From a virus, in IMG/VR virus record IMGVR_UViG_3300042922_000982, positions 62,001 through 126,000 of that record: a stretch of 64,000 bases of DNA; one strand, given 5' to 3'. The translations under genes and the position numbers were made by a program. The notes under the pieces are model-generated. The model was not told where the DNA came from and ran no database searches. It was given only the letters and a program-made list of their open reading frames with translations. Numbering within the stretch: position 1 is the stretch's first letter; each line of letters begins with the position of its first letter. Positions 7,122-24,664 of this stretch are shown in pieces.

Positions 7122-7159
7122 CCGGGCCCCCAGGAACGGTTTTCCGGGGGCCCGGATAA
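7122..7159 (+). promoter_or_regulatory. Class 2 promoter element, copy 1
   Basis: GGAACGG (7133-7139), 14 nt, GGATAA (7154-7159). The flanks form a perfect 10-bp hairpin CCGGGCCCCC (7122-7131) with GGGGGCCCGG (7146-7155). Unlike other copies it is not followed by TAGTAGGGAGG. It lies between genes ending at 7115 and starting at 7226. Confidence 0.55.
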
Positions 7160-7225
7160 CGAAACACAGGTGCCCCACCGTGGGGCGCCGATAGCCGCCC
7201 GCGCCAACGGGCAAGGAGAACCGCC

Positions 7226-7867
7226 ATGACCACTGGAGTCGTTCATCGCTACATCGCCGATCTCGTCAAGGTGCGCCACGCCCCCGTGCGCTATGATCAC
7301 GCGGCGAGCCGATACCTGGACCTCGACAACGACGTCTTTTACCCCAAGGACCGCGTCTGGGACTACAAGAAGAACGCCCAGGAGGCCAACGATCCGGCCA
7401 CCGCCGAGGAGGTCCTGCTCGCCATGGCCGTGGAGGTGGTGGCCGCCGCGCCGGGCGAGTTTAGCTTCGACGGGCTCGTCGATCACCTGCTCGCGCCGCG
7501 CCGCGCGCCGCTGATCTCGACCCCGGCGCGCGACGCGCGCCTACGCGCGCTGCCGCACCACCACGCCCTGCGCACGGCCGACATGACCATGGTGCACGTC
7601 CGGCCCCGGCTGGAGCGGGTGATCCGCGAGGCGGTCGCCAAGGAGGGCTTTATCGAGGTGGGCATCTGGCGCAGCCTCTACCCGGCCGGGCACCACTACC
7701 CCTGTGACGTGTGGGACGTGCGAAAGCGCGAGTTCGCGGCCAGGGGGCTCACCCGCCGGGCGGCCGAGCTTGAAATGGTGCGGCTCGCCAAGGCGAACGG
7801 CTCGCGCTACCAGGTGGTGGCCGATCACCAGACGCTCGACTCCTATTACCCGTACGGGCAGGACTAG
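7226..7867 (+). CDS. Hypothetical protein, 213 aa
   Basis: Standard AAGGAGAACCGCCATG start about 67 nt after class 2 promoter copy 1. Rich in His, Arg and Asp (RLRALPHHHALRTADMTM). The end carries DHQTLDSYYPYGQD. A predicted alpha/beta protein without a motif I can tie to an enzyme. Confidence 0.7.
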   Translation: MTTGVVHRYIADLVKVRHAPVRYDHAASRYLDLDNDVFYPKDRVWDYKKNAQEANDPATAEEVLLAMAVEVVAAAPGEFSFDGLVDHLLAPRRAPLISTPARDARLRALPHHHALRTADMTMVHVRPRLERVIREAVAKEGFIEVGIWRSLYPAGHHYPCDVWDVRKREFAARGLTRRAAELEMVRLAKANGSRYQVVADHQTLDSYYPYGQD

Positions 7868-7871
7868 CGCC

Positions 7872-8192
7872 ATGGGCACCTGGATGATCTACCGCACCCC
7901 TCACGCGCGCAGCACGCACTTCTGCCGGGACGTGCTGGAGGCGCTTGACCGGGCGATCGCCCGCGCCAAGCTCATGGCCGAGGACGGCATCCCCATCACG
8001 CGGCACGGCGCCCGGCACTGGTCGGACGGCGTGGAGCAAGGCGGTCACGAGATTCGCGTCGTGACCGGCCCCGCCTGGAAGGCGCGCGCCGTCGAGCGCG
8101 CCATGGAAACCCTGCTCACCCCTGCCCCCTACCCGGCCGCCCTGCACAACGGGGCGGCCATCACCGAGGAGAATCCCCATGCCCATCACTGA
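7872..8192 (+). CDS. Hypothetical protein, 106 aa
   Basis: Begins 4 nt after the previous stop. N-terminus MGTWMIYRTPHARSTHFCR; central helix DRAIARAKLMAEDGIP. The end overlaps the next gene by 14 nt. No family recognised. Confidence 0.65.
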   Translation: MGTWMIYRTPHARSTHFCRDVLEALDRAIARAKLMAEDGIPITRHGARHWSDGVEQGGHEIRVVTGPAWKARAVERAMETLLTPAPYPAALHNGAAITEENPHAHH

Positions 8193-8634
8193 GACCCCCT
8201 ACGGGGTGATCGACACCTGCGACGGCTGCGGCAAGCGCATCCGCGACAACACGACGCGCACCGTCATCCTCGAGCCCGGCGAGGGCCCCCGCCCGGCCAA
8301 GGAGGTCTGGCACGTCACCTGCCACGCCGTGCACATGAAGGCGCTCGGCTACGTCATGACCCAGCGCGACGGCGAGTGGGGCTGGGACTTGGCCCCCGAG
8401 CCCGACGTGACGATCACCTGGGGCTCAACGGTGTTCAAGCCCGCGCGCGGCGCCTGCGCCATGGCGGGCTGCGATCACCCGCCGGTCGTGATCCTCACGA
8501 CGATCACGGGCACGAAGCACCACATGGAGGCGTGCTCGGAGCACGGCGCGACGGTGCTCGACTTCGTGCGCGAGCGCGATCGCTACCGCCGCATCGGCCA
8601 GGAGATCGTGCCCATCACGGAGGTGGTTCAATGA
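8179..8634 (+). CDS. LIM-like zinc-binding protein, 151 aa
   Basis: Starts at an ATG behind GAGGAGAATCCCC. The pattern CDGCGKRI, then WHVTCHAVH about 36 residues on, is reminiscent of a half LIM or treble-clef zinc site. Further Cys and His (CAMAGCDH, HMEACSEH) can form a second site. Likely structural zinc; binding partner unknown. ATGA overlap with the next gene. Confidence 0.7.
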   Translation: MPITETPYGVIDTCDGCGKRIRDNTTRTVILEPGEGPRPAKEVWHVTCHAVHMKALGYVMTQRDGEWGWDLAPEPDVTITWGSTVFKPARGACAMAGCDHPPVVILTTITGTKHHMEACSEHGATVLDFVRERDRYRRIGQEIVPITEVVQ

Positions 8635-9095
8635 CCATGGACCCCACCCACCCCAGCTTCGGGGCGCCCCGGCCCCTCGATCGCATCCCCATGCGCTTCA
8701 CGCTCGACCTGATCGTGAGCCCGCAGTCCGACAAGGGCCCCATGCCCGAGCCGGGGGACATCGCGGCGGGCATCACCGCGATCCTGAAGGACTCGTTCTC
8801 GATGTCGGTCGGCGTGGGCGGCGGGTTCGTGCAGAGCCTGCGCCTCTTGCCCGCCATCGCGTCGGAGGCACCGCGTCGGCACGCGCCGTCTGAGCGGGCG
8901 ATCGTGGTGAGCGCCCCCGTGGGGGCCAAGGCGATCCACGTCGACATGCCCCACCGGCAAAGCGACGCGGTCGAGATCGCCCTGGTGAACGACGACATGA
9001 TCGACACCGGCATCCTGATGGATCCGGACACGGCCGAGGCGCTCGCGCACGCCATCCTGTTCCAGGTGGCGCGTCGGCGCGCCAACCCCTTGTAA
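8631..9095 (+). CDS. Hypothetical protein, 154 aa
   Basis: ATGA-coupled to the upstream gene. Alternating strand-helix pattern with a glycine loop (SVGVGGGFVQSLRLLP). Ends with a helix (DTAEALAHAILFQVARRR). Followed by a 9-bp GC hairpin. No family recognised. Confidence 0.65.
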   Translation: MTMDPTHPSFGAPRPLDRIPMRFTLDLIVSPQSDKGPMPEPGDIAAGITAILKDSFSMSVGVGGGFVQSLRLLPAIASEAPRRHAPSERAIVVSAPVGAKAIHVDMPHRQSDAVEIALVNDDMIDTGILMDPDTAEALAHAILFQVARRRANPL

Positions 9096-9105
9096 GAACA
9101 CCCCA

Positions 9106-9125
9106 GGGGCCTCCCCGGAGGCCCC
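9106..9125 (+). terminator. GC-rich intergenic hairpin
   Basis: GGGGCCTCC-cc-GGAGGCCCC, a perfect 9-bp stem directly after the stop codon. No T-run follows, so it is either a weak or factor-dependent terminator or an RNA-stability hairpin. Similar palindromes follow several other genes of this arm. Confidence 0.35.
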
Positions 9126-9171
9126 GCTTGCCCCGCTGCCGGTTATCCGGAAACACCGAAAGGACTCCGCC

Positions 9172-9789
9172 ATGCTCCGCCTCTACGCCCAAATCACCCG
9201 CACCGCCCCCGCTCGCCGGGGCGGGAAGACCTATTACAGCGCCGTCGTGCGCCTGGGGCCCCCGGCGCTCTCGAGCGGCCACACCGAAGACGACCTGCTG
9301 GCCGTCCAGGCGATCAACACCACGCTGGTCACCGCGACGACCGTCAAGCCCCGGCCCCACTGGGGGTCGGTAGTCGGCGAGGTGATCGCCTCGGCGCGCG
9401 CCTTCTTCACCGTGCCCGACCGCGAGGTCAAGCTGGAGGTCTACGTGCCCGCGTTCACGGACGACGTCGCGACGCCCAAGCCGCTCGTCTACACGTTCAT
9501 CTTCGTCGAGTCCGAGCCCACCATGGAGTGGAACACGCCCCTGCCGCCCGGCGTGATGGCCACCCGCGACTTCACCATCGGCGATCGCGCGTTCATGGCG
9601 CGCGGGGTCTACGCCCTCACCGGCAGCCACCCGCACGACGGCCTGGTCGACATGCGCGATCACGCCTGCGGCGCGACGCACTTCGCCATCCCCATGATCG
9701 ACTTCGTGATCGCCGTGCGCGACGGCCGGTTCATCGCGGCCACGCGCCAGGTGGTGAAGCACCCCGAGTCCTTCGCGGTGGAGGCGTAG
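9172..9789 (+). CDS. Hypothetical protein, 205 aa
   Basis: ATG behind GAAAGGACTCCGCC. Largely beta-stranded (VKLEVYVPAF, KPLVYTFIFVESEP), with a His/Asp-rich stretch near the end (SHPHDGLVDMRDHACG). Could be a compact beta-sandwich, but no family is recognised. Confidence 0.7.
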   Translation: MLRLYAQITRTAPARRGGKTYYSAVVRLGPPALSSGHTEDDLLAVQAINTTLVTATTVKPRPHWGSVVGEVIASARAFFTVPDREVKLEVYVPAFTDDVATPKPLVYTFIFVESEPTMEWNTPLPPGVMATRDFTIGDRAFMARGVYALTGSHPHDGLVDMRDHACGATHFAIPMIDFVIAVRDGRFIAATRQVVKHPESFAVEA

Positions 9790-9792
9790 CCG

Positions 9793-10074
9793 ATGAAGCG
9801 TTCCAAGTTCAGCGACGAGCAGCTCGCCGAGTGGCGCAAGGGGCTCAAGAAGGGCGACAGCGTGCGATTGCTGCGCGGTTTTACCTTCAAGCAGGAACCG
9901 TACTCGGTGTCGCACGAGACCGTCCAGTCGATCAGCCCCACCGGCCGCATCACCGTGTATGGCTACACCTTCAACCCGGACGGCACCCAGCGCGGCGGCT
10001 CGCGCGAGTCCGACGTCCGCATCGAGCCGTTCGCCCTGACACCCAAGAAGGAGGCCCCCAATGGCCAGCAGTAA
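9793..10074 (+). CDS. Hypothetical protein, 93 aa
   Basis: Starts 3 nt after the previous stop. A short helix (DEQLAEWRKGLKKGDSV) precedes an SH3-like beta-rich body (VRLLRGFTF, ITVYGYTFNPDG). KGDxVRLLRG is typical of small beta-barrel DUFs. Overlaps the next gene by 14 nt. Confidence 0.65.
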   Translation: MKRSKFSDEQLAEWRKGLKKGDSVRLLRGFTFKQEPYSVSHETVQSISPTGRITVYGYTFNPDGTQRGGSRESDVRIEPFALTPKKEAPNGQQ

Positions 10075-10747
10075 CCCAGCGATCGCCCTCTATCGCTACA
10101 GCGTGCCCCCCGAGGACACCGTCCAGGGCTGGGGCATCTTCTTGATCGACAGCGTGGGCACGTTCACCTGCGTCACGGACTACGGAAACTATGCCTTCGC
10201 CTGGCGCCACACGGGCTACCACGACTTCCGGCGCTGGATCGTGGACATGGGCGAGCGGATCGCCAGCACGGGCTACTGCGACTACCTCTGCTCCAAGCTC
10301 GGCCGCGAGACCGCCTTCGATCCCGATCACTCCTTCGAGAAGATCGCGCGCTGCATCCTCGAGTCGCGGCGCGAGGGGCGCATCCCCGCCGATGCGACCG
10401 AAGCCGACGAATGGGCCCGGCGGGGGCGCAAGCATCCCTGGTATTACCACTTCGGCCCGTACGGCGGGCCCTACGACGGCGCGCGCGAGCAGTACGACCT
10501 GGCCGTGCAATTGCGCGACGGCGAGATCAGCCCCGACCTGTACGTCAACGACTCGCGGCTGTGCGACGCCTACGAATACCTGAGCTATGACTACCCGGCC
10601 GACCTGAAAATGTTCGCCACGCGACTGATGCCGCGCCTGGCCGCGATGGTGCGCCAGGAGCTTGAGGCCGAAGGGCTCTTGGGCGCCTGCTACACCTGCG
10701 GCGCCGACGTCCCCGCCTGCGGGCATCAGCAACCCCAGGCCAGCTAG
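10061..10747 (+). CDS. Hypothetical protein, 228 aa
   Basis: ATG behind AAGGAGGCCCCC. N-terminal beta strands with aromatic content (WGIFLIDSVGTFTCV, YAFAWRHTGYHDFRRW), a long helical middle, and a short C-terminal zinc knuckle-like CYTCGADVPACGH. Unknown function; sits just upstream of the DHH-family gene, possibly in the same operon. Confidence 0.7.
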   Translation: MASSNPAIALYRYSVPPEDTVQGWGIFLIDSVGTFTCVTDYGNYAFAWRHTGYHDFRRWIVDMGERIASTGYCDYLCSKLGRETAFDPDHSFEKIARCILESRREGRIPADATEADEWARRGRKHPWYYHFGPYGGPYDGAREQYDLAVQLRDGEISPDLYVNDSRLCDAYEYLSYDYPADLKMFATRLMPRLAAMVRQELEAEGLLGACYTCGADVPACGHQQPQAS

Positions 10748-10776
10748 TCCACCCCACCTGCCGAAAGGATCCACCC

Positions 10777-11616
10777 ATGAGCACACCCCCGATTCGCGTA
10801 TTCTACCACGCCAACTGCACCGACGGCTTCGCCGCCGCCTTCTCAGCCTGGTTCAAGTTCAAGGACGACGCCACCTACCACGCGATCAACTATGGCCAGG
10901 CCATGCCCGCGATCGCCGACGGTGAGCGCGTCTACTTCCTCGACATCTGCCCGCCGCGCGCCGCGCTCGAAGCCCTGGCCGCGCGCTGCGAGGTGGTCGT
11001 GCTCGATCACCACGTCACCTCCGAGCAGGATATGGCCGGGCTTTCCTATGCCTACTTCGACAGCAAGCGTTCGGGCGCCATGCTCGCGTGGCGCTTCTTC
11101 CACCCGCAGACCCCGGCCCCGAGCGTGATCGACTACGTGCAGGATCGCGACCTGTGGCGCTGGGCGCTGCCGCACAGCCGCGAGGTATCGGCGGCCATCC
11201 GGACGCACCCCAAGGACTTCGAGGTCTGGCTGGCCCTGACCGGCCCCGGCGTGATCGGCGATCTTGTCACGCAAGGGTCGGCCGTCCTGGCCGCCCAGGC
11301 GATCGAGGTGGGCATCTTGGTCGCGCACGCGCGCCTGGGCACCGTGGCGGGCCACCAGGTGCCCGTGGTCAACACGGCAATCCACATCTCTGAAACCGGG
11401 GAGGCGCTGTGCGCGGCCTACCCCGACGCGCCCTTCGCCGCGACCTTCTACGTGGGCGCGGACGGCCGCGAGCGCTGGAGCCTGCGCGCCCACAACGGCT
11501 TCGACGTGTCGGTGGTGGCGCGCCTGCTCGGCGGCGGCGGCCACCGGGCGGCGGCCGGATTCAACCGCGAGGCGGCCCCCGCCGTCGTGATGACCCCGGA
11601 GGTGACCCCGTGCTGA
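10777..11616 (+). CDS. DHH/DHHA1-family phosphoesterase, 279 aa
   Basis: Motifs of the DHH superfamily are visible in order: HANCTDG near residue 11, a conserved Asp in VYFLDICP (residue 56), LDHHVT with the signature DHH at 77-79, an Asp in DYVQDRDLWRW near 118-128, and a C-terminal DHHA1 glycine loop GGGGHRAAAGF near 250. Family members are Mn-dependent phosphoesterases acting on short oligonucleotides, cyclic dinucleotides or ssDNA ends (NrnA, GdpP, RecJ). Length fits the NrnA-like class. Likely roles are nanoRNA recycling or removal of signalling nucleotides; the substrate cannot be told from sequence. ATG behind GAAAGGATCCACCC. Confidence 0.9.
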   Translation: MSTPPIRVFYHANCTDGFAAAFSAWFKFKDDATYHAINYGQAMPAIADGERVYFLDICPPRAALEALAARCEVVVLDHHVTSEQDMAGLSYAYFDSKRSGAMLAWRFFHPQTPAPSVIDYVQDRDLWRWALPHSREVSAAIRTHPKDFEVWLALTGPGVIGDLVTQGSAVLAAQAIEVGILVAHARLGTVAGHQVPVVNTAIHISETGEALCAAYPDAPFAATFYVGADGRERWSLRAHNGFDVSVVARLLGGGGHRAAAGFNREAAPAVVMTPEVTPC

Positions 11617-12470
11617 GCCCGAGCAAGATCACCCCGCCTGCGCGCTACACTTTCCTCGCGCGCAGGCTGAATCGGCACCGCTACCACCTGACGGCCCTCG
11701 CGGGCGGCGGCGATCCGCTGTGCGGCAACGACGACGAGGTCAGCGAGCAGACCATGGAGTACCTGCGCGGCGAGTTCACGCCCGCCGAGAAGGTCTGCCG
11801 GGAGTGCTACGCCCTAGCGGGCGCGCCCTTCCCCTACCCCGATCCGGGCCCGGCGCCTGAAATCGTGCCGGGGGAGGTCGAGCTGCGCTGGCACCTGCCT
11901 GACGGCGCCGCCGAGCCGGAACAGGTGCTCATGCGCAGGCGCGCCACGCGCGGATGGGAGAGCGCTGTGCCGGTGGAGACGGCCCGCAGCCGCGTGTTCA
12001 CCTGCTACCTGTTCAGCTACCCCACGCGCGAGGAGGCGATCGCCGCGCAGCTGGCCATCGAGGAGAAGCGGCTGGCGCCCGAGATCGCCTACGTGCAGCG
12101 GCTGCGGGACGCCCTGCGCGGCGGCCGGGCCGCCGGTGGCCAGCCGCGACTGGACGCCATCGCGGCGCGGCTGGAGGTGGCCACGCCCGCGCCGTGGGGC
12201 TACGGCAGCAACTTCGTCTCGACGCCGGGGCCGAACGGCCGCTTTGTGGCCATGTCGCCCAAGCCCGACGATCCGTACGCGGCGCCGCAGCAGGCGGGCA
12301 ACCTGGCCTTCATCTGCCACGCGCGCGCCGACGTGCCCGACCTGTTGAAGGTGGCGCGCGCGGCGCGGGAGGTACTCGACGCGGCCCCGGCCGCGCAGGC
12401 CGACACCCCGGTGGCGTGGATGGCGGCGTTGCAGAACCTGGCCGCCGTGCTCGACTCCCTCGACGGGTAA
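11610..12470 (+). CDS. Hypothetical protein, 286 aa
   Basis: GTG at 11610 behind GGAGGTGACCCC, overlapping the end of the DHH gene by 7 nt, so probably co-translated with it. Scattered Cys (CGNDDE, CRECYAL) in the first 60 residues. The C-terminal 130 residues are helical with WGYGSNFVSTPGPNGRFVAM. No family recognised. A strong terminator follows. Confidence 0.7.
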   Translation: MLSPSKITPPARYTFLARRLNRHRYHLTALAGGGDPLCGNDDEVSEQTMEYLRGEFTPAEKVCRECYALAGAPFPYPDPGPAPEIVPGEVELRWHLPDGAAEPEQVLMRRRATRGWESAVPVETARSRVFTCYLFSYPTREEAIAAQLAIEEKRLAPEIAYVQRLRDALRGGRAAGGQPRLDAIAARLEVATPAPWGYGSNFVSTPGPNGRFVAMSPKPDDPYAAPQQAGNLAFICHARADVPDLLKVARAAREVLDAAPAAQADTPVAWMAALQNLAAVLDSLDG

Positions 12471-12501
12471 AGGGGCGCGGTCAAGAAACGTGACCCAGGT
12501 G

Positions 12502-12533
12502 GGCGGAAGGGCAAGGATCCTTCCGCCTTTTTT
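12502..12533 (+). terminator. Intrinsic terminator
   Basis: GGCGGAAGG and CCTTCCGCC form a 9-bp stem around an 8-nt loop, followed by TTTTTT. It closes the unit with the DHH gene and lies 36 nt before class 2 promoter copy 2. Confidence 0.85.
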
Positions 12534-12569
12534 GTCGTTTGGGGTAAAAAGGGGGCCTCGGGGCCTTGA

Positions 12570-12596
12570 GGAACGGTTTTTCTTGGGGCAGGATAG
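12570..12596 (+). promoter_or_regulatory. Class 2 promoter element, copy 2
   Basis: GGAACGG (12570-12576), 14 nt, GGATAG (12591-12596), followed by TAGTAGGGG. The flanks can pair as GCCTTGAG/CTTGGGGC using G-U pairs although the bases differ from other copies. Precedes the 57-aa gene at 12654. Confidence 0.65.
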
Positions 12597-12653
12597 AAGG
12601 TAGTAGGGGCGGGCGCGTGTCCGCCGCCACACCGGCCGAAAGGAGGCCCCACC

Positions 12654-12827
12654 ATGCAGACCTCGACACCCACGGCGCGCTACCGCGTCGAGCGGCTCGC
12701 ACGGGGGCGGAAACGCCCCTTGTGGCTGGCCGTGGACGGCGCGACCGGCGCCACTCTGCACCCCTTCCCCACCCAGCGCATGGCCGTCCAGTACGTCGGC
12801 CTGCGCAACACCGAGCCGGGCCTGTAG
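12654..12827 (+). CDS. Small hypothetical protein, 57 aa
   Basis: ATG behind AAAGGAGGCCCC (12639-12650), an excellent ribosome site, right after promoter copy 2. Sequence begins MQTSTPTARYRVERLARGRK and continues with WLAVDGATGATLHPFPT, suggesting a small beta-rich domain. Too short for most gene finders but well supported by signals. Unknown function. Confidence 0.7.
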   Translation: MQTSTPTARYRVERLARGRKRPLWLAVDGATGATLHPFPTQRMAVQYVGLRNTEPGL

Positions 12828-12846
12828 GGCCCAGAGGAGAACCGCC

Positions 12847-13365
12847 ATGACCACCGCCAAAGCCAAGAAGAGTCAACCCCAGCCGATCGCCAGCGAGTTT
12901 AACGGCCGCGTCGCCCAGGTGCGGCCCGACCTCACCATGAACCCGTACGCGGGCGCCATTGGTCGGCTCGCGCTGCACCCCAAGCGCGGCACCATGGAGC
13001 TTCACGTCTTGCAGGGCGTGGGCTACCTGGCCATCGAGGGGCTCACCGCCGACGAGATCACCCTGCTCGAAGGCCCGACCGCCGAGGCGCTGGTGCGGGG
13101 CGAGGTGTTCAAGCGCACGCTCGCCACCGCTCGCGTGCCCGCCATCACGGCGCACCAGCCGACGGTGGCCTACTTGATGCGCGCGGCCTACATGGTGCCG
13201 CTCGACGGCGCCGACACCTTCATGATCCAGCTGGGCACCTGGTCGGATGAGCAGGCGGCCATCAAACGGGACATGGACGACGCGGGCGTGCACCCGGCGC
13301 TCTACGAGCTGATGCGCACGGCGCGCGAGATGAAGAGCCCGTACCTCTGGCTCGTGATCGCCTAG
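12847..13365 (+). CDS. Hypothetical protein, 172 aa
   Basis: Standard AAGGAGAACCGCCATG-type start, 19 nt after the small gene. Basic N-terminal tail, then alternating strands and helices, with IEGLTADEITLLEGPTAEAL in the middle and a helical end. No family recognised. Followed within 25 nt by promoter copy 3. Confidence 0.7.
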   Translation: MTTAKAKKSQPQPIASEFNGRVAQVRPDLTMNPYAGAIGRLALHPKRGTMELHVLQGVGYLAIEGLTADEITLLEGPTAEALVRGEVFKRTLATARVPAITAHQPTVAYLMRAAYMVPLDGADTFMIQLGTWSDEQAAIKRDMDDAGVHPALYELMRTAREMKSPYLWLVIA

Positions 13366-13387
13366 CGATCGAGGCCCAGGGCCCCCA

Positions 13388-13453
13388 GGAACGGTTTTTT
13401 CGGGGCCTGGATAGTAGAGAGTAGGGAGGGGGCCGGTTGCCCGGCGCCCTCCC
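13388..13453 (+). promoter_or_regulatory. Class 2 promoter element, copy 3, with leader hairpin
   Basis: GGAACGG (13388-13394), exactly 14 nt, GGATAG (13409-13414). The expected transcript start falls near GTAGGGAGGG. From 13424 the leader forms a hairpin: GGGAGGG with CCCTCCC (13447-13453) and GCCGG with CCGGC around TTGC. Upstream flank GGCCCC pairs with GGGGCC across the T-run. Confidence 0.7.
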
Positions 13454-13485
13454 CCGTCACCCCCACCGTCAAAAGGAGAACCGCC

Positions 13486-13902
13486 ATGACCACCAAGACC
13501 AGCACCCGCACCTCCCGCGCGCCCAAGGCGAAAGCCATGGCCGTGGACCCCCGGCCCAAGACCAAGCTGCCGCGCAAGCGTCGCTCGGACGCGGGCGTGC
13601 CGCGCACCCTCGACAAGCCGCGCATGGGCTTCCTCGCCGACCTGTTCGCCGAGGCGCCCGTGCACACCCCGGCCCCGGAGGAGCGCACCTTCTGGATCAC
13701 CGAGTCGCCCAGCGGCTTGTACCTGGTGCGCCCCACCGAGTTCGAGGCGCGCGTGGCCGTGAACAAGTGCGGCAACCGCGCGATCGGCACGGTGAAAGCG
13801 AAGGACTACCACGCCGCCACGCTCCTGGCCATGGCCATGGAGCAGCGCGACTACCCCGGCGACGCCCGCTTCGTCCGCGCTACCCGCGCGGCGCGCGCTT
13901 AA
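13486..13902 (+). CDS. Hypothetical basic protein, 138 aa
   Basis: Standard leader start downstream of promoter copy 3. The first 40 residues are very basic and probably disordered (TRTSRAPKAKAMAVDPRPK, KLPRKRRSD), as in nucleic-acid-binding proteins; a small alpha/beta domain follows (RTFWITESPSGLYLVRPTEF). Function unknown. Confidence 0.65.
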   Translation: MTTKTSTRTSRAPKAKAMAVDPRPKTKLPRKRRSDAGVPRTLDKPRMGFLADLFAEAPVHTPAPEERTFWITESPSGLYLVRPTEFEARVAVNKCGNRAIGTVKAKDYHAATLLAMAMEQRDYPGDARFVRATRAARA

Positions 13903-13916
13903 GGGAGGATCCTGCC

Positions 13917-14510: not shown

Positions 14511-14525
14511 TCCCGCCCCCCTACC

Positions 14526-14547
14526 GCCCCGGCCGCCCGGCCGGGGC
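14526..14547. repeat. GC-rich intergenic palindrome
   Basis: GCCCCGGCCG-cc-CGGCCGGGGC, a perfect 10-bp stem after the stop codon and just before the next ribosome site. No T-run. One of several similar palindromes after genes in this arm. Confidence 0.35.
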
Positions 14548-14563
14548 ATCGAGGAGAGCCGCC

Positions 14564-17642: not shown

Positions 17643-17977
17643 TGTTCGAGGTCATGAGCAAGCGGTGTAACCAGTGCCTGTTCGGCCCGAACCGGATCGT
17701 GGACGCGGACCGCAAGGCCGAGATCCTCGCCGAGTGCACGGCCACGGGGAAGCACTTCACCTGCCACAAGGCGACCATGCACTCGCGCAGCATGGACGTG
17801 TGCTGCCGGGGCTTCTGGGACGCCTTCCGGGTGTCGCACGCCACGCAGGGCATGCGATTGGCGCAGTACCTGCGGCCGGACGCGCCGTGGACCTTCATCG
17901 ATCCCGGCACGCTCAAGGTGGTGGGGCACGGGCTCACCCCACCCGAGGCGGCCCCGGCGGCAACGCCTACCGAGTGA
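17642..17977 (+). CDS. Cysteine-rich hypothetical protein, 111 aa
   Basis: ATG overlaps the previous TGA by one base. Cysteines are spread as CNQC, C, C, CC in the first 60 residues (KRCNQCLFGPNRIV, FTCHKATMH, DVCCRGFWD); with four or more ligands, this may be a zinc or iron-sulfur site. No family recognised. Followed by a terminator with an embedded promoter. Confidence 0.65.
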   Translation: MFEVMSKRCNQCLFGPNRIVDADRKAEILAECTATGKHFTCHKATMHSRSMDVCCRGFWDAFRVSHATQGMRLAQYLRPDAPWTFIDPGTLKVVGHGLTPPEAAPAATPTE

Positions 17978-17989
17978 GCCACGGCGGCG

Positions 17990-18000
17990 TGGTAGACTGG
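17990..18000 (+). promoter_or_regulatory. Extended -10 promoter abutting a terminator
   Basis: TG-g-TAGACT-GG. The predicted start (about 18005) falls inside the 5' arm of the terminator at 17999-18035, so new transcripts lack the lower half of the hairpin and can escape it. It would drive the gene at 18066. Confidence 0.5.
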
Positions 18001-18035
18001 CGGTCAGCAGGCAAGCAACCTGCTGGCCGCCTTTT
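17999..18035 (+). terminator. Intrinsic terminator
   Basis: GGCGGtCAGCAGG (17999-18011) pairs with CCTGCTGgCCGCC (18019-18031), followed by TTTT. It ends the unit that includes the Cys-rich gene. Confidence 0.85.
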
Positions 18036-18065
18036 CTCGTCTTCGCCTGCCGAAAGGATCCACCT

Positions 18066-18965
18066 GTGTCCCAATTCGACCCCGAGTTCCTCGACTTCAT
18101 CACCGACCACATGTCGGACGTCTTCAAGGCGTCCGCGTGCGGGCACTACGACGCGCTCAATTACAAGGATTGCGCCAACCACCTGGCCGTGCTGGCGTCT
18201 GAGACGGGCCTGCTCGGCTCCGAGACCCCCGAGGGCTTCTTGAACGCCGACGTGATCGACACGCTCTACAGCATGGCCACGGCCGCCTTCGCCTGCTTGA
18301 TGTGGAGCTACGGCGAAACCTTCGACCAGATGCGCGCACGCCTGAGCGATCGCCTGCTCGACACCCACCACGCCGCCTTCCACGCGGCCGACGGCTGGAT
18401 GGGGCTCGATCACTACCGGGGGCCGTCGTTCCAGCTGCTGACCGAAATCTTCAAGCTCGGCGGCGAAGTGAGCGCGGCAGCGGTCGAAATTGCCGATCCG
18501 GTGCCGCCCGGCAACGCCGCCTGCGAGAAGCAGCTCTGGGAGGTGCTCACAGCCATCCTGGCCGTGACGGCCACGGTCACGTTCATGCACGACGAGGTCC
18601 TCGAACGCGCGCAGGCGGCCCAGGAGGCGGCGAAAGAGTACCGCAAGCACGGCATGGGTGCGATGACCCTGATCGTCTGCGCGATCGCCGACCCCGACGT
18701 GTTCGCCTTCCCGCTCGGCGAGCACAACATCATGGCGCAGGTGGAGCGCAGGCTCGCGGGCAACATGCTGATCGCCTCGGTGGACCTCGACGAGGTCACG
18801 GCCTACCTGAGCGCCTGCGAGGCCAAGGACAACCTGCCCATGGCCATGATGCCCGTGCTCGGCGTGTGCGTGCCGCAGCCGGACGGCACCATCGACACGG
18901 TCACGATCCTCGAGACGTTGCGCGAGGCGGCCATGCGCGAAGAGGGGCTCAACCCGGACGATTAA
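18066..18965 (+). CDS. Hypothetical helical protein, 299 aa
   Basis: GTG at 18066 behind GAAAGGATCCACCT. Almost entirely helical by eye; a hydrophobic stretch (LYSMATAAFACLMWSYG) could be a buried helix rather than a membrane span because flanks are polar. First gene after a terminator and promoter module, so expressed as its own unit. No family recognised. Confidence 0.7.
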   Translation: MSQFDPEFLDFITDHMSDVFKASACGHYDALNYKDCANHLAVLASETGLLGSETPEGFLNADVIDTLYSMATAAFACLMWSYGETFDQMRARLSDRLLDTHHAAFHAADGWMGLDHYRGPSFQLLTEIFKLGGEVSAAAVEIADPVPPGNAACEKQLWEVLTAILAVTATVTFMHDEVLERAQAAQEAAKEYRKHGMGAMTLIVCAIADPDVFAFPLGEHNIMAQVERRLAGNMLIASVDLDEVTAYLSACEAKDNLPMAMMPVLGVCVPQPDGTIDTVTILETLREAAMREEGLNPDD

Positions 18966-18993
18966 GCGCCCGATCGGGCCGCCAGGGCCCCCA

Positions 18994-19063
18994 GGAACGC
19001 TTTTTTCGGGGCGTGGATAGTAGATAGTAGGGAGGGGCTACCGGGCAACCGGCGGCCCCTCCT
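18994..19063 (+). promoter_or_regulatory. Class 2 promoter element, copy 5, with leader hairpin
   Basis: GGAACGC (18994-19000), 14 nt, GGATAG (19015-19020), then TAGATAGTAGGGAGG. Leader hairpin 19030-19063: GGAGGGGC with GCCCCTCC, internal loop, CCGG/CCGG, GCAA loop. Stem bases differ from copies 3 and 4 yet pairing is kept. Confidence 0.7.
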
Positions 19064-19096
19064 CCGTCACCCCCATCACCGAAAGGAGCGCTCACC

Positions 19097-19498
19097 ATGC
19101 GCATCACCATCCACACCACCGCCACCGAGTCCACCAACGAGCAGAGCCGCACCTACACGGAGCTGCCGATCGCCACCTCCTCCATGTTCACGCACGGCCC
19201 CTGCGACCCCTTCACGATCGTCGCGCACAACGGCGAGGTCGAGTCGGCCTGCACCGTGATCCTGCACGGGCCGAACGGGCACCTGTTCATCATCCTACTC
19301 ACCGGCACGGCCAACGACATCCGGACGATCTTCTGGAACCTGTATTGCAACGCCTACGGCGTGCGCCAGAAGACCTGGGTCGGCGAGATCTACAACACGA
19401 TCGCCGACCACCTGCCCAAGTGCCTGGAGTGCGAGGGCCAGGTGGACGCCACCGGCTGGTGCGCGGCCCGCTGCTGCCCGACGGCCCTCACCTGCTAA
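19097..19498 (+). CDS. Hypothetical protein, 133 aa
   Basis: ATG behind GAAAGGAGCGCTCACC. Beta-rich first half with Thr repeats (MRITIHTTATESTNEQS) and a C-terminal Cys cluster, CLEC then CAARCC and a final C, suggesting a zinc site at the tail. No family recognised. Confidence 0.65.
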   Translation: MRITIHTTATESTNEQSRTYTELPIATSSMFTHGPCDPFTIVAHNGEVESACTVILHGPNGHLFIILLTGTANDIRTIFWNLYCNAYGVRQKTWVGEIYNTIADHLPKCLECEGQVDATGWCAARCCPTALTC

Positions 19499-19508
19499 GC
19501 CCCCACCG

Positions 19509-19530
19509 CCCCCGGCCGCACGGCCGGGGG
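19509..19530 (+). terminator. GC-rich hairpin after stop
   Basis: CCCCCGGCCG-ca-CGGCCGGGGG, a perfect 10-bp stem followed by CTTCC. The poor T-run makes termination uncertain. Confidence 0.4.
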
Positions 19531-19550
19531 CTTCCCCGGAGGATACCGCC

Positions 19551-19859
19551 ATGGGAAACTTGAACCGCTACCCGGACGACCTGAAGGAATGGAAGGACGA
19601 ATGGCTCACCACCGAGGCCGGGCACCACGCCTTCATGGCGCGAGTCGGCCGTGACCCCGAGGAGCGCGCCGCGTCGGCTGCGCGCGTGAAAGAGCTCAAC
19701 GCCGAGATCGCCCGCCGCTACCCCGACCGCGACGCGCTGATCGAGGAGATCATCCGGCGCCACCTGGAGCGCACCAGCGAAACGGACGCCAGCATCGCCA
19801 ACCTCCGCCGCTGGTGGCAGGATCAGCCCACCGCCGATCTGCAAGCCGCCCTCGAGTAA
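19551..19859 (+). CDS. Hypothetical helical protein, 102 aa
   Basis: ATG behind GGAGGATACCGCC. Charged helices with many Arg/Glu (EERAASAARVKELNAEIARR) and Trp pairs (LRRWWQDQ). Probably a helical bundle. Unknown function. Confidence 0.65.
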   Translation: MGNLNRYPDDLKEWKDEWLTTEAGHHAFMARVGRDPEERAASAARVKELNAEIARRYPDRDALIEEIIRRHLERTSETDASIANLRRWWQDQPTADLQAALE

Positions 19860-19887
19860 CGCCACCCCCCAACCAAGGAGAACCGCC

Positions 19888-20121
19888 ATGACCACCGCCA
19901 ACGCCCCCACCCACCTGGTCGGCACCAAGATCACCTTCTCGATCCCCGTGACGGCCGATACCGACGACGCGGCGATCGACGCCGCGCTCAAGCGCCTCAC
20001 CGACGCCCTGCGCCAAGCCTTCCCCGAGGCCGCGCCGCCGCGCCTCTCGGACGCCGCCGCGTCGCGCATCTACCCCGTGAGCCGGGTGTCCGACCCGCTC
20101 GCTGCCCGCCCGGTTGCTTAA
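19888..20121 (+). CDS. Hypothetical protein, 77 aa
   Basis: Standard AAGGAGAACCGCCATG start. One strand (TKITFSIPVTA) and one helix (DDAAIDAALKRLTDALRQ) suggest a small ferredoxin-like half-domain. No family recognised. Confidence 0.6.
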   Translation: MTTANAPTHLVGTKITFSIPVTADTDDAAIDAALKRLTDALRQAFPEAAPPRLSDAAASRIYPVSRVSDPLAARPVA

Positions 20122-20134
20122 GGAGACCCCCGCC

Positions 20135-20515
20135 ATGCGCCAAGTGCACACCCACCCCGACGGCCGCCGCTTCACGCTCTGCCAGGGCGACGATTTCAAG
20201 GACGGCGATCGCGTGATCCTGATCAGCAATCCGCTCTACCCCCTGCACGCCCCGGTGATCGGCACCTTCTCGAAGCCGCACGCCACGGGCGGAACGGTCA
20301 CCTACTACGCCGACCGCGACGGCGACGAGCCCGGCGAGCTTGAAACCGACGCCATCACCCTCGAATGGGTGTCCTACAAGGCCATGCTGCCCGCCACGGC
20401 CGCCGCGCTCGACTGGGTGGCCTCCGACCTGGAGGCCCAGGCGGGGCGGTTCCGGCGGCTTCGCGAGCAGCTGTACGGCACGGCCACCGGCGACGTCGAT
20501 CGCCCGCTGCCGTGA
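20135..20515 (+). CDS. Hypothetical protein, 126 aa
   Basis: ATG at 20135 behind TTAAGGAGACCCCCGCC. Beta-rich N-terminal 80 residues with KDGDRVILISNPLYPL, similar to small barrel domains, then a coiled-coil-like helix (LEAQAGRFRRLREQLYG). GTGA overlap with the next gene. Confidence 0.65.
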   Translation: MRQVHTHPDGRRFTLCQGDDFKDGDRVILISNPLYPLHAPVIGTFSKPHATGGTVTYYADRDGDEPGELETDAITLEWVSYKAMLPATAAALDWVASDLEAQAGRFRRLREQLYGTATGDVDRPLP

Positions 20516-20655
20516 AGCGCCCCGCCCCCCTGCCCTGCCAATTCTGCGGGCGTGCCGACGGTGACGTCGGCACGCGCCAGATCGGGCACGACATCCTGTC
20601 CCGCGTGTGCGACCCCTGCACGGCCCTGCGCCGCGCCGCGCGTCGCCGCCCCTAG
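20512..20655 (+). CDS. Mini zinc-ribbon protein, 47 aa
   Basis: GTG start in a GTGA overlap with the upstream gene. Two Cys pairs, CQFC and CDPC, 24 residues apart, with a basic end (LRRAARRRP), make a minimal zinc ribbon. Short, but the overlap, coding bias and zinc pattern support it. Confidence 0.55.
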   Translation: MKRPAPLPCQFCGRADGDVGTRQIGHDILSRVCDPCTALRRAARRRP

Positions 20656-20670
20656 CCCATGGAGACCCCC

Positions 20671-21204
20671 ATGACCGAGCACATCAACACCCCGCTGCCC
20701 CTGCCGACGGCCCCGCAGCCCTACGACAACCTGAACCGCGCCTTCCGGGCCCTGTGCAAGCGCGAGGGCACCGCGCTGGATTGCTACCACGACCCTCGAG
20801 ACGTCGACGAGGTGTTCGGCCACGCCAGCCTGGTCGACGCGTTCCTGGTCGACGTGATCAAGAGCAAGCACTGGCGCGCGCGCGCCAACCCGGATGGCCT
20901 CCTCGACCTGGTCGTGCCCGGCGAGGTCGAGATCGTGGCGTACCGGGTCATCCAGCCCGCCGATCGCGCCTGGGGGCCGCGCGTGGTGCAGGAGGTGCCC
21001 CTGCTGCCGCCCCTGAGCAACGCGGATGAGGAGGGCATCAACATGACCCTCGACACGTTCGTCTCGCAGATCATGGGCTGCCTGGCCATGTCGGGCGAGC
21101 TGGCGCTTGCTCGCCAAAGCGGCCCCAACGGCGAGGACCCCGACGAGGAACCCTGCGGCCAGTGCGGCCGGGTGGATTGCGTCTGCGACGAGGAGGAGGA
21201 ATAG
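20671..21204 (+). CDS. Hypothetical protein with zinc tail, 177 aa
   Basis: ATG at 20671 has GGAG 7 nt upstream; an ATG at 20659 would destroy that site and is not preferred. A mixed alpha/beta body (AFLVDVIKSKHW) ends with an acidic CGQCGRVDCVC tail that could hold zinc. No family recognised. Confidence 0.65.
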   Translation: MTEHINTPLPLPTAPQPYDNLNRAFRALCKREGTALDCYHDPRDVDEVFGHASLVDAFLVDVIKSKHWRARANPDGLLDLVVPGEVEIVAYRVIQPADRAWGPRVVQEVPLLPPLSNADEEGINMTLDTFVSQIMGCLAMSGELALARQSGPNGEDPDEEPCGQCGRVDCVCDEEEE

Positions 21205-21206
21205 CC

Positions 21207-21386
21207 ATGGCCGTGAATGGCAAGCACAAGAAAACCTGCGGCTCGACGCGCTGCGAGCGGTGCTACGGCGAGATGGTCAACACGCGCCGGAAGCGCGAGC
21301 CCCAGCCCGGCGATCGCAAGAAGATCGCCAGCATGGCGAGTCAGGTGGCCGAGGCGATCGCCCCGGAGCCCCCGCGCGCCCAGTAA
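21207..21386 (+). CDS. Small zinc-binding protein, 59 aa
   Basis: ATG behind GAGGAGGAATAGCC, 2 nt after the previous stop. C-x5-C-x2-C pattern (KKTCGSTRCERCYG) and a basic region, then a helix. Followed by a strong terminator that closes the unit. Confidence 0.65.
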   Translation: MAVNGKHKKTCGSTRCERCYGEMVNTRRKREPQPGDRKKIASMASQVAEAIAPEPPRAQ

Positions 21387-21394
21387 CCCCCTGC

Positions 21395-21428
21395 ACGCCA
21401 GGCCCCCGTCGCGGGGCCTGGCGTTTTT
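21395..21428 (+). terminator. Intrinsic terminator
   Basis: ACGCCAGGCCCC (21395-21406) and GGGGCCTGGCGT (21413-21424) form a perfect 12-bp stem, continuing into TTTT. Confidence 0.9.
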
Positions 21429-21453
21429 GCGTCGGTGGGCCCCTGATCGGAGG

Positions 21454-21459
21454 TAGGAT
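21454..21459 (+). promoter_or_regulatory. Candidate -10 box
   Basis: TAGGAT followed by GG, just after the terminator; the predicted start (about 21466) gives a 28-nt leader to the gene at 21494 and argues against an in-frame ATG at 21458. No extended TG and no clear -35. Confidence 0.35.
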
Positions 21460-21493
21460 GGGCCTGCTTAACCATCACTTGAGGAGGATTGAC

Positions 21494-22177
21494 ATGCCCA
21501 TTCCCGTGAACACGGCCCCCGCCGACTTGCAGCCCGCGCTGATCGTCGCCTGCAACGAGCTGTCGGATCGCGTCGATGTGCCCCGTGAGGGCACCCGCGC
21601 GCCCGAGTCCTGGGTGCGCTACTTCGCCGCCCGCCCCGGCAGCATCGACCTGGCCAAGCTCGGCGCCATCTGGGCGGCCGTCGTCTACACCGACGCGACC
21701 AAGCAGACGGTGGCCGCCGCCAACGCCGTCCCGGTGATCGATTGCGACGTGGCGACCACGGCCGCGCTCGCCGCCAACACCCTCACCGCTGGCGAGCTGG
21801 TGGCCTCCGCCAACGGCGCGCTCGCCAACATCGACGGCCAGGCCCCCGCGCTCAAGAAGATCGTCCTGGTGAAAAACGAGGCAGACGCCACCAAGCTCGG
21901 CTTCTACGTGATCACCGACCTGGGCTCGGCGGGCACCCCCTGGAAGATGAAGCGCGTTCCGGGCGCCACCTTGCAGAACAAGGCCGCCACGCTGGTCAAG
22001 ACCGGCACGGCCAACGCGAACAAGGTCTTCCGCATCACCACGGCCAACCCGATCGTGGCGGGCACCACGGCGATCGCCTTCGCCGAGCTGGCCTCCGCCA
22101 GCGCGGTCGAGGCCCTCTTCGAGGTGGCCACCGCCTTGCAGCCGACCGTCGGCCTGGTGCTCTCGCCCAAGCTGTAA
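21494..22177 (+). CDS. Hypothetical protein, 227 aa, single-gene unit
   Basis: ATG behind GAGGAGGATTGAC. A Thr/Ala/Val-rich, beta-leaning protein (LTAGELVASANGALANIDGQ; KTGTANANKVFRI) with a style common in virion decoration or major secreted phage proteins. It is the only gene between two very strong terminators, which suggests high, independent expression. A structural or cement role is a guess; no family recognised. Confidence 0.7.
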   Translation: MPIPVNTAPADLQPALIVACNELSDRVDVPREGTRAPESWVRYFAARPGSIDLAKLGAIWAAVVYTDATKQTVAAANAVPVIDCDVATTAALAANTLTAGELVASANGALANIDGQAPALKKIVLVKNEADATKLGFYVITDLGSAGTPWKMKRVPGATLQNKAATLVKTGTANANKVFRITTANPIVAGTTAIAFAELASASAVEALFEVATALQPTVGLVLSPKL

Positions 22178-22191
22178 GCACACAACCCCAA

Positions 22192-22236
22192 GGGGCGGTC
22201 CGCATGGTACGATCCATGCGGACCGCCCCCTTTTTT
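22192..22236 (+). terminator. Strong intrinsic terminator with promoter in its loop
   Basis: GGGGCGGTCCGCATGG (22192-22207) and its exact complement (22214-22229) form a perfect 16-bp stem followed by CTTTTTT. The 6-nt loop is TACGAT. Confidence 0.95.
22205..22213 (+). promoter_or_regulatory. Extended -10 promoter inside terminator loop
   Basis: TG-g-TACGAT; the hexamer is exactly the loop of the terminator. Predicted start near 22220 lies in the 3' arm, so transcripts from here carry no hairpin and reach the gene at 22250 with a 30-nt leader. Confidence 0.45.
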
Positions 22237-22249
22237 ACGGAGAACCGCC

Positions 22250-23128
22250 ATGTCCAAACCGCCTCGCCCCAGATTCATCGTCACGTCCTCGCCCCATATG
22301 GCCGACGATTTCTTCCGCTCCCGGCACGAGATCGCCAAGAGCGTCACTGTGCGGCGCGTCCCGGCCGCCGAGTTCCCGCCTTTGCCCAGGGCGGCCTCGT
22401 GGGGCACGGCGGCCACGGTGCCCCTCGTGGGGGCCCCGACGGCGGCGCCGTTCAGCGTGCCCGAGCGCACGCCCGATCACGCGGCGATCGCCGGGCACAT
22501 CACGCGCCTGATCGCCCACCTGCACACGCCGCCCCCCATGCCCGAGCCCACCAACGTCATGCGCGGCCTGCTCGCACCCGATCTGCGCGAGGCGATCGCG
22601 CGGCAGCGGCAGGGTGCCGACCTGTTCAGGCAGGCGGCCCAACGCGACGCGGAGGGCATCGCCACCGGCCGCATCGAGCTGCGCGCGGACAACCGCGTCC
22701 CGCCGGATCAGGTGCACCTGTTCGATCGCGCCGGGCGCCGCACAGGTGCGATCACCAACCTCGACAACGACACCCTCTCGGCCCCATGGCCCACCGGCGT
22801 ATGGGCGGGCGACCCCCGCGAGGAGGCCCCGTGGCCGTACCGGCCGCGCCGGGGTGGCGGCTTCATGCAGATGGACGAGCAAGCCTTCAAGCCGAAGGAG
22901 CCCCCGATGCGGACGATCGCCTTCAAGTGCCGGGGCTGCGGCGCCACGGGCGTGGTCGACGTGCCCGAGCCCATCTTCAACGACGTGGGGGTGAAGGTGG
23001 TCGTGGACATGACGCAACAGGCCACGGCCGACGGCTGCCTCAAGTGCATGGACGCGGTGCATGGGCTCGGCTACTCGATCGGTGTGACCTACCCCTACCC
23101 GGCCGACTGGCTCGAGCCCCGGCGGTAG
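22250..23128 (+). CDS. Hypothetical protein with C-terminal zinc finger, 292 aa
   Basis: ATG in GGAGAACCGCCATG. The first 200 residues are Pro/Arg-rich and partly disordered, with a helical segment at 80-130. The last 75 residues hold CRGCGATG and CLKC, a four-Cys zinc site. No family recognised. Promoter copy 6 follows immediately. Confidence 0.7.
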   Translation: MSKPPRPRFIVTSSPHMADDFFRSRHEIAKSVTVRRVPAAEFPPLPRAASWGTAATVPLVGAPTAAPFSVPERTPDHAAIAGHITRLIAHLHTPPPMPEPTNVMRGLLAPDLREAIARQRQGADLFRQAAQRDAEGIATGRIELRADNRVPPDQVHLFDRAGRRTGAITNLDNDTLSAPWPTGVWAGDPREEAPWPYRPRRGGGFMQMDEQAFKPKEPPMRTIAFKCRGCGATGVVDVPEPIFNDVGVKVVVDMTQQATADGCLKCMDAVHGLGYSIGVTYPYPADWLEPRR

Positions 23129-23136
23129 GGCCCCCA

Positions 23137-23208
23137 GGAACGGTTTTTTCGGGGCCTGGATAGCAGGTAGTAGGGAGGGCTGGGCGGCACGCGCCGCGCA
23201 CCCCTCCC
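23137..23208 (+). promoter_or_regulatory. Class 2 promoter element, copy 6, with leader hairpin
   Basis: GGAACGG (23137-23143), 14 nt, GGATAG (23158-23163), then GTAGTAGGGAGG. Leader 23173-23208: GGGAGGG with CCCTCCC and GCGGC with GCCGC. The leader body is shared almost exactly with copy 7. Confidence 0.7.
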
Positions 23209-23225
23209 CGCTACGGAGAACCGCC

Positions 23226-23432
23226 ATGGACACCCCACCCACCGTCACCATCCCCGATCGCCTGTACCGCGCCGCCGTGCGGCTCGTCAATAGCACCTTC
23301 CCCGGCGCCGCGCCCACGCACGGCCTGATGGGTGCCTGCTTCGTGGAGACGCCCGCCGGGCGCATCCTCGGCGCGGGCCCCAGCTTCCGCGAGGCGTACG
23401 TCGTCGCGGCCGAGCGCCTGGCCGCCCGCTAA
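23226..23432 (+). CDS. Hypothetical protein, 68 aa
   Basis: Start in GGAGAACCGCCATG downstream of promoter copy 6. Small mixed protein ending in a helix (FREAYVVAAERLAAR). No family recognised. Confidence 0.6.
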   Translation: MDTPPTVTIPDRLYRAAVRLVNSTFPGAAPTHGLMGACFVETPAGRILGAGPSFREAYVVAAERLAAR

Positions 23433-23450
23433 CCCCACCCCCGTCACCCC

Positions 23451-23487
23451 AGCCTTCCGCCACCCGTGGCGTGGAGGCCCCACCGTT
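23451..23487 (+). repeat. Intergenic leader repeat, copy 2
   Basis: Near copy of 585-620, with the GCCAC/GTGGC dyad preserved, again directly upstream of a standard translational start. Confidence 0.4.
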
Positions 23488-23502
23488 ACAAGGAGAACCG
23501 CC

Positions 23503-23931
23503 ATGGGACACTACCTCACGCACACCACCCTCGATCACGCCATCACCTACGCCACCAACGAGCCCGAGACGGCCGTCATTCACGTCCTGACCGACCCCAA
23601 GCTGGGGCCGATCACCACCACGAGTACCGACGCGGCCATGTACGCCCTGCGCCAGGGGGCCACGCACCACCTGACGCTCAACGGCCCCAAGCTGGTCGAG
23701 CCCGAGAACTACAAGCCCGCGCCGCTGCCGCCCAAGGCCGAGGGCTACGCAAACGTGGCCGTGTTCGAGCCGTACGGCCTGGGCAAGCGCGACCTGGTCG
23801 ACGTGTACGTGCGCCTGGTGGGCGCCCGCGTCGAGATCCAGCTCGACGACAAGCAGGCGAAAACGATGCACGCGAACGCCACCTCCTTGATCAACCTGCC
23901 CCACACCACTTGCGCCATCTTCTGGCGGTGA
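23503..23931 (+). CDS. Hypothetical protein, 142 aa
   Basis: Standard leader start. Thr/His-rich beginning (HYLTHTTLDHAITYATNE) and a beta-leaning C-terminus with DLVDVYVRLVGARVEIQLDD. No family recognised; separated by a few bases from the next gene. Confidence 0.65.
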   Translation: MGHYLTHTTLDHAITYATNEPETAVIHVLTDPKLGPITTTSTDAAMYALRQGATHHLTLNGPKLVEPENYKPAPLPPKAEGYANVAVFEPYGLGKRDLVDVYVRLVGARVEIQLDDKQAKTMHANATSLINLPHTTCAIFWR

Positions 23932-23945
23932 AAGGACCCTACGCC

Positions 23946-24254
23946 ATGACGAACCTCAACACCCCCGCCCCCCTGGCCCCCGAGGCCGCCCTCACGGCCA
24001 CCGTCGCCGCCTTGCAGGGCGTCTTGCAAAGCATCGAGCGCGGTGACACCGGCACCACGCCGTCGGTGCGCCGGATGATCGCCCAGGCGATCGCGATCGG
24101 CTGCACGACGCTCGGCGACCCCGAGGGCGCATCCGACGCGGAATCCAAGCAGGATCCGCCCGAGCCGAAGGGCCTGAGCCCGGAGGACTACTTCGCCGGG
24201 CCGCGCCCGTACCGCGCGCTGGGCGGGCACCCCCGCTCGACCCTGCTGCGCTAG
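23946..24254 (+). CDS. Hypothetical protein, 102 aa
   Basis: ATG behind AAAGGACCCTACGCC. A helical first half (VAALQGVLQSIERGD) with a TTPSVRRMIAQAIAIG helix, then a disordered Pro/Glu-rich tail. No family recognised. Confidence 0.6.
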   Translation: MTNLNTPAPLAPEAALTATVAALQGVLQSIERGDTGTTPSVRRMIAQAIAIGCTTLGDPEGASDAESKQDPPEPKGLSPEDYFAGPRPYRALGGHPRSTLLR

Positions 24255-24264
24255 GGGGCCGCCG

Positions 24265-24582
24265 ATGACGACCCCGAAGATCACCAGGAAGGCCAAGGGC
24301 CTGCTCGACAAGCCCCTGGTCCTCGACGCCATGATGAACGGCCGGTACGTCGTGGAGACGAAGGCGGGCCGTTTCGTCGGCGCCTTCGACACCATGGGGG
24401 AGGCGCAAGAGGCCGCATTCAACGACGAGCGGGCGGCGCACCACGAGCTGCACTACCCGCTCGACGAGCAGGCCCTGCGCAAGCTCAGGATCCGCATGCT
24501 CGAAATCCCGAGCGACGAGCGGGTGGTGCGGGCGATCGCCGCGCTTGACGACGCCATGAAAAAGCGCGGGGTCACCGCGTAG
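24265..24582 (+). CDS. Hypothetical protein, 105 aa
   Basis: ATG behind GGGGGCCGCCG, 11 nt after the previous stop. Central strands (MNGRYVVETKAGRFVGAFD) followed by helices rich in Glu/His/Arg. Ends a few bases before promoter copy 7. Confidence 0.6.
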   Translation: MTTPKITRKAKGLLDKPLVLDAMMNGRYVVETKAGRFVGAFDTMGEAQEAAFNDERAAHHELHYPLDEQALRKLRIRMLEIPSDERVVRAIAALDDAMKKRGVTA

Positions 24583-24590
24583 GGCCGCCA

Positions 24591-24664
24591 GGAACGGTTT
24601 TTCACCCGCCTGGATAACAGGTGGCAGGGAGGGCTGGGCGGCACGCGCCGCGCACCCCCCCCCC
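24591..24664 (+). promoter_or_regulatory. Class 2 promoter element, copy 7, with leader hairpin
   Basis: GGAACGG (24591-24597), 14 nt, GGATAA (24612-24617), then CAGGGAGG. The 14-nt spacer has a different sequence (CACCCGCC in place of CGGGGCC) but the same length. The leader repeats that of copy 6 with a weaker lower stem. Confidence 0.65.

Follow-up and report, generated by a model that had tools for sequence, protein, structure and literature searches.

Introduction

The late promoters of Salmonella phage 7-11 have the form GTAAtg-(16)-aCTA and are read by the phage sigma factor gp47 (PMC8948821), and cluster K mycobacteriophages carry 11-19 copies of a 13-bp start-associated sequence, GGGATAGGAGCCC, near start codons (PMC3203893). 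On the host side, cyanobacterial SigF reads type-3 promoters with TAGGC (-32) and GGTAA (-12) boxes, and cyanobacterial sigG has an RpoE-like promoter (PMC2758279); for promoters of extracytoplasmic function (ECF) sigma factors, one study cites T-tract selectivity and works with 16/17-bp spacers (PMC6767563). Here we describe a family of 17 bipartite elements, GGAAC-N16-GGATA (also written GGAACG-N15-GGATA), in the 157,406-bp phage record IMGVR_UViG_3300042922_000982, seven of which lie in the window, that is, the 64,000-nt stretch analysed here (record 62001-126000). Judging from their sequence and placement, these elements are probably a private promoter class of the small-gene forward arm of this phage, read by host core RNA polymerase together with an alternative specificity factor.

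Results

Genes were called with a script using Shine-Dalgarno and codon statistics, the whole record being read in pieces, and fall into a reverse arm (record 0-32 kb), a forward arm with many small genes (32.3-91.8 kb) and a second reverse arm (91.8-157 kb). Every one of the 17 copies returned by a whole-record search falls within record 32336-86617 and on the coding strand of the forward arm, and none lies on the reverse strand anywhere in the genome; the first-pass annotation was therefore right that the family is confined to one arm, runs always along transcription and is missing from the minus-strand arm. It had counted seven copies of GGAACGG-N14-GGATAR. All seven stand where it placed them, six of them exact and the one at 18994 carrying a single mismatch (GGAACGC), and the count is true of the window, but ten further copies in the record had been overlooked. 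The elements of the window, preceded by the part of the arm in which they lie, are as follows.

Window 1..29759, plus strand: forward gene arm, window part; mostly small genes without family matches, holding the window share of the 17 copies
Window 7124..7173, plus strand: element 1, GGGCCCCCA-GGAACGGTTTTCCGGGGGCCC-GGATAA; core 7133-7159, hairpin 7169-7189, next gene 7226
Window 12561..12610, plus strand: element 2; core 12570-12596, hairpin 12606-12628, next gene 12654
Window 13379..13428, plus strand: element 3; core 13388-13414, hairpin 13424-13453, next gene 13486
Window 16199..16248, plus strand: element 4; core 16208-16234, in which the preceding open reading frame (ORF; 15482-16234) ends, hairpin 16244-16275, next gene 16309
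Window 18985..19034, plus strand: element 5, the GGAACGC variant; core 18994-19020, hairpin 19030-19063, next gene 19097
Window 23128..23177, plus strand: element 6; core 23137-23163, hairpin 23173-23208, next gene 23226
Window 24582..24631, plus strand: element 7; core 24591-24617, hairpin 24627-24660, next gene 24697

The motif is a discrete family with no decayed or weaker members: a 50-column weight matrix returned exactly the 17 copies, at 36 to 84 bits, with all else on both strands below 8 bits and a maximum of -1.8 in 10 simulated genomes. This whole-genome scan with a motif model had been proposed earlier as a check, and its 17 matches are not scattered randomly over coding DNA and both strands. 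GGAAC-16-GGATA also ranked first in an unbiased dyad search of the gaps, and a search of both strands of the window with two mismatches allowed gave one additional match, at 116, with 2.3 expected by chance. Counts of GGAACGGTTTT came to 15 on the plus strand and one on the minus strand. The minus-strand one is a reverse half-copy, AAAAAAACCGTTCC, at the divergent junction near record 32.3 kb (outside the window), where it faces the first forward copy. Beyond the record, the extended motif had no match in viral contig or genome contig collections, the pattern used for genome contigs being long and exact; looser patterns gave isolated matches in other contexts, which we judged to be chance. Neither an Rfam search nor Megablast against phages gave a match.

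All 17 copies lie 69-145 nt upstream of a start codon. They had been described as always occupying gene gaps, which holds for 14 of them; the other three (record 49261, 61783 and 78208, the last being window 16208) overlap upstream ORF ends, the predicted upstream ORF ending at the TAG of GGATAG. Stoperators are typically multi-copy, intergenic repeats in a single orientation, and the phage encodes several helix-turn-helix (HTH) proteins, so the elements could instead be operators of a phage repressor or silencer. We regard this as quite unlikely, since the conserved stretch is 50 bp long with two boxes at a fixed separation, every copy lies just upstream of a gene with none away from gene starts, and the motif gaps hold no other sigma70-like promoter. 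With the sigma70-like -10 box pattern [GT][CGT]TANN[AC]T, we counted 27 boxes in 86 other gaps (11.2 kb) and none in 13 motif gaps (1.68 kb), where ~4 were expected; coding DNA has 0.16 per kb. Because of the absence from motif gaps, two promoter classes seem to share out the gaps. A scan for the TTGACA / TATAAT consensus gave no match in window 7000-26000 and did not pick up the motif itself, and the elements do not qualify as sigma70/SigA (type 1) promoters. Just upstream of element 2 stands an intrinsic-terminator-like site (window 12501-12528 plus T tail); across window 12501-12570 a terminator-like hairpin is thus followed by a copy and then by a gene, and a start signal is therefore needed there.

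Alignment of the copies delimits a conserved unit of ~50 bp, GGGCCCCCA-GGAACGGTTTTT(Y)-variable-GGATAG-YAGATAGTAGGG, that reaches from 9 nt upstream of GGAAC to ~40 nt past the GGAAC start and has the consensus GGGCCCCCA GGAACGGTTTTTyC gGGGCCT GGATAG yAGATAGTAGGGAGGG. The two-box core had been recognised correctly, whereas this extent and the leader hairpin described below had been missed. Invariant columns are GG and one C of the upstream block, GGAACG, TTTT, GGATA and an AGG ~10 nt further on; while the boxes are invariant, the spacer centre, the upstream flank and the leader diverge. Ten distinct spacers occur among the 17 copies, every one of 14 nt. The length is thus as constant as had been claimed, but the sequence changes less freely, its first 4-6 nt being always T and half of it conserved. 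The box centres are ~21 bp, or two helical turns, apart. A conserved spacer hairpin with GGGCCCC (GGGCCCC...GGGGCC) was seen by eye in some copies only and was dropped.

After the second box, 16 of the 17 copies continue in the same order, with a predicted RNA hairpin, a C-rich leader, a Shine-Dalgarno sequence and the start codon; the copy at record 61783 has no hairpin of note. Measured from the motif start, the hairpin sets in at 36 nt in most copies; at record 45909 it follows GGATAG immediately. Stem sequences differ between copies, and since shuffle z-scores range from -0.6 to -5.1, with 8/17 below -2, not every hairpin stands out individually in this GC-rich DNA. Two pairs of leaders are 98% identical (record 49261 and 80994, the latter being window 18994, element 5; and record 34331 and 43745) amid unrelated flanking DNA, so that promoter and leader appear to travel as a cassette; copies with a common leader may carry different spacers.

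The conserved hairpin position (directly after GGATA in a relative described below) and the copying of leader cassettes between loci would also suit a post-transcriptional leader element, that is, a signal for RNA processing, RNA stability or translation within polycistronic messages, of which the boxes would be part. We find this very doubtful: by inspection the upstream half (GGGCCCCCAGGAACGGTTTTT) has no pairing common to all copies, and invariant boxes at a fixed spacing with free sequence between them are better suited to DNA recognition. The 98% identical leader pairs might likewise be taken for a mobile repeat or an artefact of recent duplication with no function, an explanation that is hardly credible given that flanks have diverged to about background, that spacers vary between invariant boxes and that different spacers can accompany a common leader.

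By its portal and capsid proteins (30-36% identity) the phage stands near SPO1-like viruses. An alignment search of viral contigs yielded two relatives that are nearer, with 52% portal identity: one contig of 121 kb (GC 71%) and one of 96 kb (GC 66%), both of which have the structural module in common with it. The GGAACG/GGATA motif was found in neither. In the 121-kb relative, the unbiased dyad search of gaps returned CATAA-13-CGGAT as its top pair, and the family CATAAA-N12-CGGATA has about nine copies there, in gaps on both strands and along transcription, mostly 63-75 nt ahead of the start codon and with a hairpin directly after GGATA; its second box agrees with that of the phage motif, whereas the first differs. 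The same search gave no family in the 96-kb relative or in a more distant one of 80 kb, the GGATAGGGG pattern had scattered single matches only in eight more distant relatives, and repeats returned by whole-genome dyad searches of relatives were mostly in coding DNA or tandem repeats. In the 96-kb relative (L116-L120), TTACACAGG is repeated 48 times in forward and 8 times in reverse orientation; 32 of these repeats are in gaps, and several stand directly before start codons.

The highly iterated palindrome HIP1, GCGATCGC, occurs 191 times in the record against 6.3 expected and is frequent in both nearer relatives as well (69 and 92 copies). Cyanobacterial genomes are commonly rich in HIP1 (PMC4390886), and the 30-fold enrichment here suggests a cyanobacterial host, for which, given 69% GC, a Cyanobium-like organism would be our guess. 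A ThyX search made as a host clue returned mostly Treponema and other spirochaetes at ~50% identity and gave no host information.

Several observations weigh against the promoter reading. Profiles of sigma70 region 2 (PF04542) and ECF region 4 (PF08281) had no match in the record, and region 4 (PF04545) had two sub-threshold matches, both in HTH genes, although divergent phage sigmas can escape such profiles. A hairpin directly after GGATA(G), as in the relative and at record 45909, is a poor fit to GGATA as a -10 box with a start 7 nt downstream, and the exclusion of sigma70-like boxes from motif gaps depends on ~4 expected matches. As to polymerases, the RpoB profile PF00562 had no match in the phage (controls positive), the single-subunit RNA polymerase profile PF00940 had none in the phage or in its control and is thus uninformative, and Pfam and PHROGs scans, which covered nearly all predicted proteins, gave no sigma or polymerase among the matches listed.

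The same promoters might be read by a host group-3 sigma factor, such as the ECF-like SigG of cyanobacteria, as a borrowed stress regulon; this is a branch of the promoter reading, with overlapping confidence, and we consider it a tentative possibility. In its favour are three ECF traits (the GGAAC -35, the spacer T-tract and the 16-nt spacing), the RpoE-like promoter of sigG (PMC2758279), the HIP1 enrichment, which points to cyanobacteria, and the profile searches, which found no phage sigma. Yet GGATA is no known ECF -10, the wholly changed first box of the relative is easier to explain with a factor travelling with the phage, and the extended pattern, long and exact as it was, lacked a match in the genome contig collection. 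One group of phage genes is a weak candidate for the specificity factor:

Window 51619-52191, 52181-52822 and 52822-53433, minus strand: three tandem paralogous genes for DNA-binding (HTH) proteins, with one PF04545 sub-threshold match in the trio

An AlphaFold model of the middle protein (predicted local distance difference test score, pLDDT, 85) shows two MerR-like winged HTH domains in tandem and a low-significance resemblance to phage HTH and excisionase folds, not to a sigma factor. A homologue is present in the relative with the bipartite family and was undetected in the two without it, among four genomes of which three are probably fragments; we take this as a lead rather than a finding. 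It is conceivable, though we think it unlikely, that the lineage has a promoter code of its own, in which a phage-encoded non-sigma factor, perhaps the tandem MerR-like HTH proteins, would redirect host RNA polymerase and keep GGATA, with the first box swapped between related phages (GGAACG vs CATAAA).

Outside the family, the forward arm as a whole also holds beta clamp, DUF932, SpoVS-like and DHH genes. The likely SpoVS-like gene is the one at L011:6227-6610 on the plus strand, to which we assigned by inspection a PF04232 match among forward-arm proteins and which has homologues in both nearer relatives. Where the forward and reverse arms converge, window 29760-29834 holds a terminator-like hairpin. 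In two gaps on the minus strand (window 30471-31586 and 37974-38293) ARAGORN found one tRNA-Ala (30552-30640), and two more tRNA-like 3' halves, GGTTCGAGTCC and GGTTCGATTCC, were seen there by eye. Three hexamers are strongly avoided in the whole record: CCCGGG (1 vs 260 expected), AGGCCT (1 vs 53) and CACGTG (2 vs 53).

Discussion

The sigma70-type -10 exclusion, the constant geometry and the parallel bipartite family in a relative back the earlier view of these elements as promoter-like, arm-specific and one-stranded. In the mechanism we propose, GGAACG would serve as a -35-like box and GGATA(G) as a -10-like box at a separation fixed at 16 nt, and host core RNA polymerase would read them with the help of an alternative specificity factor. 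This factor would be either a host group-3/ECF sigma or a phage protein that profile searches do not recognise. Transcription would probably start in or beside the conserved YAGATAGTAGGG, and the mRNA would therefore carry a 5'-terminal hairpin ahead of the Shine-Dalgarno sequence. Sequences, positions, strand, spacing, leader pairing and the exclusion of sigma70-like -10 boxes are direct observations; promoter activity, start site, factor and timing we infer. If true, this would be a second promoter class in an undescribed lineage of SPO1-like myoviruses, probably of cyanobacteria, with 17 testable start sites predicted from sequence alone, and the pair of related phages, in which one promoter box has changed and the other is kept, would offer a handle for finding the specificity factor.

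Among described systems, cyanobacterial SigF promoters are alike in being non-sigma70, two-box promoters of the presumed host phylum with a G-rich -10, but neither box matches the phage motif. The cluster K start-associated sequences are also multi-copy, mostly in one orientation and outside structural genes, and contain GGATAG; here, by contrast, the GGATAG box is paired with GGAACG, has YAGATAGTAGGG after it and lies ~50-120 nt before the start codon, whereas GGGATAGGAGCCC adjoins that codon.

ECF promoters, for instance those of Streptomyces sigma-E and E. coli RpoE, likewise have a GGAAC box, a T-tract after it and 16-nt spacing, and both the GGAAC -35 and the ~16-nt spacing (GGAAC-N16-GGATA) are present in 17/17 copies. 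The first-pass annotation's comparison with alternative-sigma promoters is reasonable to this point. ECF-type -10 sequences include CGTC, GTC and TCTGA; all 17 copies have GGATA there instead, with none of these, no phage sigma was found, and the motif has an extra conserved GGGCCCCCA upstream and YAGATAGTAGGG downstream. Because its second box is not that of an ECF promoter, we do not file the motif as one.

The late promoters of phage 7-11 are the nearest working analogue. They differ in their boxes, in number (8 copies vs 17 here), in having an encoded sigma factor, gp47, where profile searches found none here, and in that motif search alone failed there, whereas the present family is nearly invariant. 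Both sets, with two boxes at constant spacing upstream of one gene class, are phage-specific and bipartite, share the 16-nt spacing and use, here as proposed, the host core RNA polymerase.

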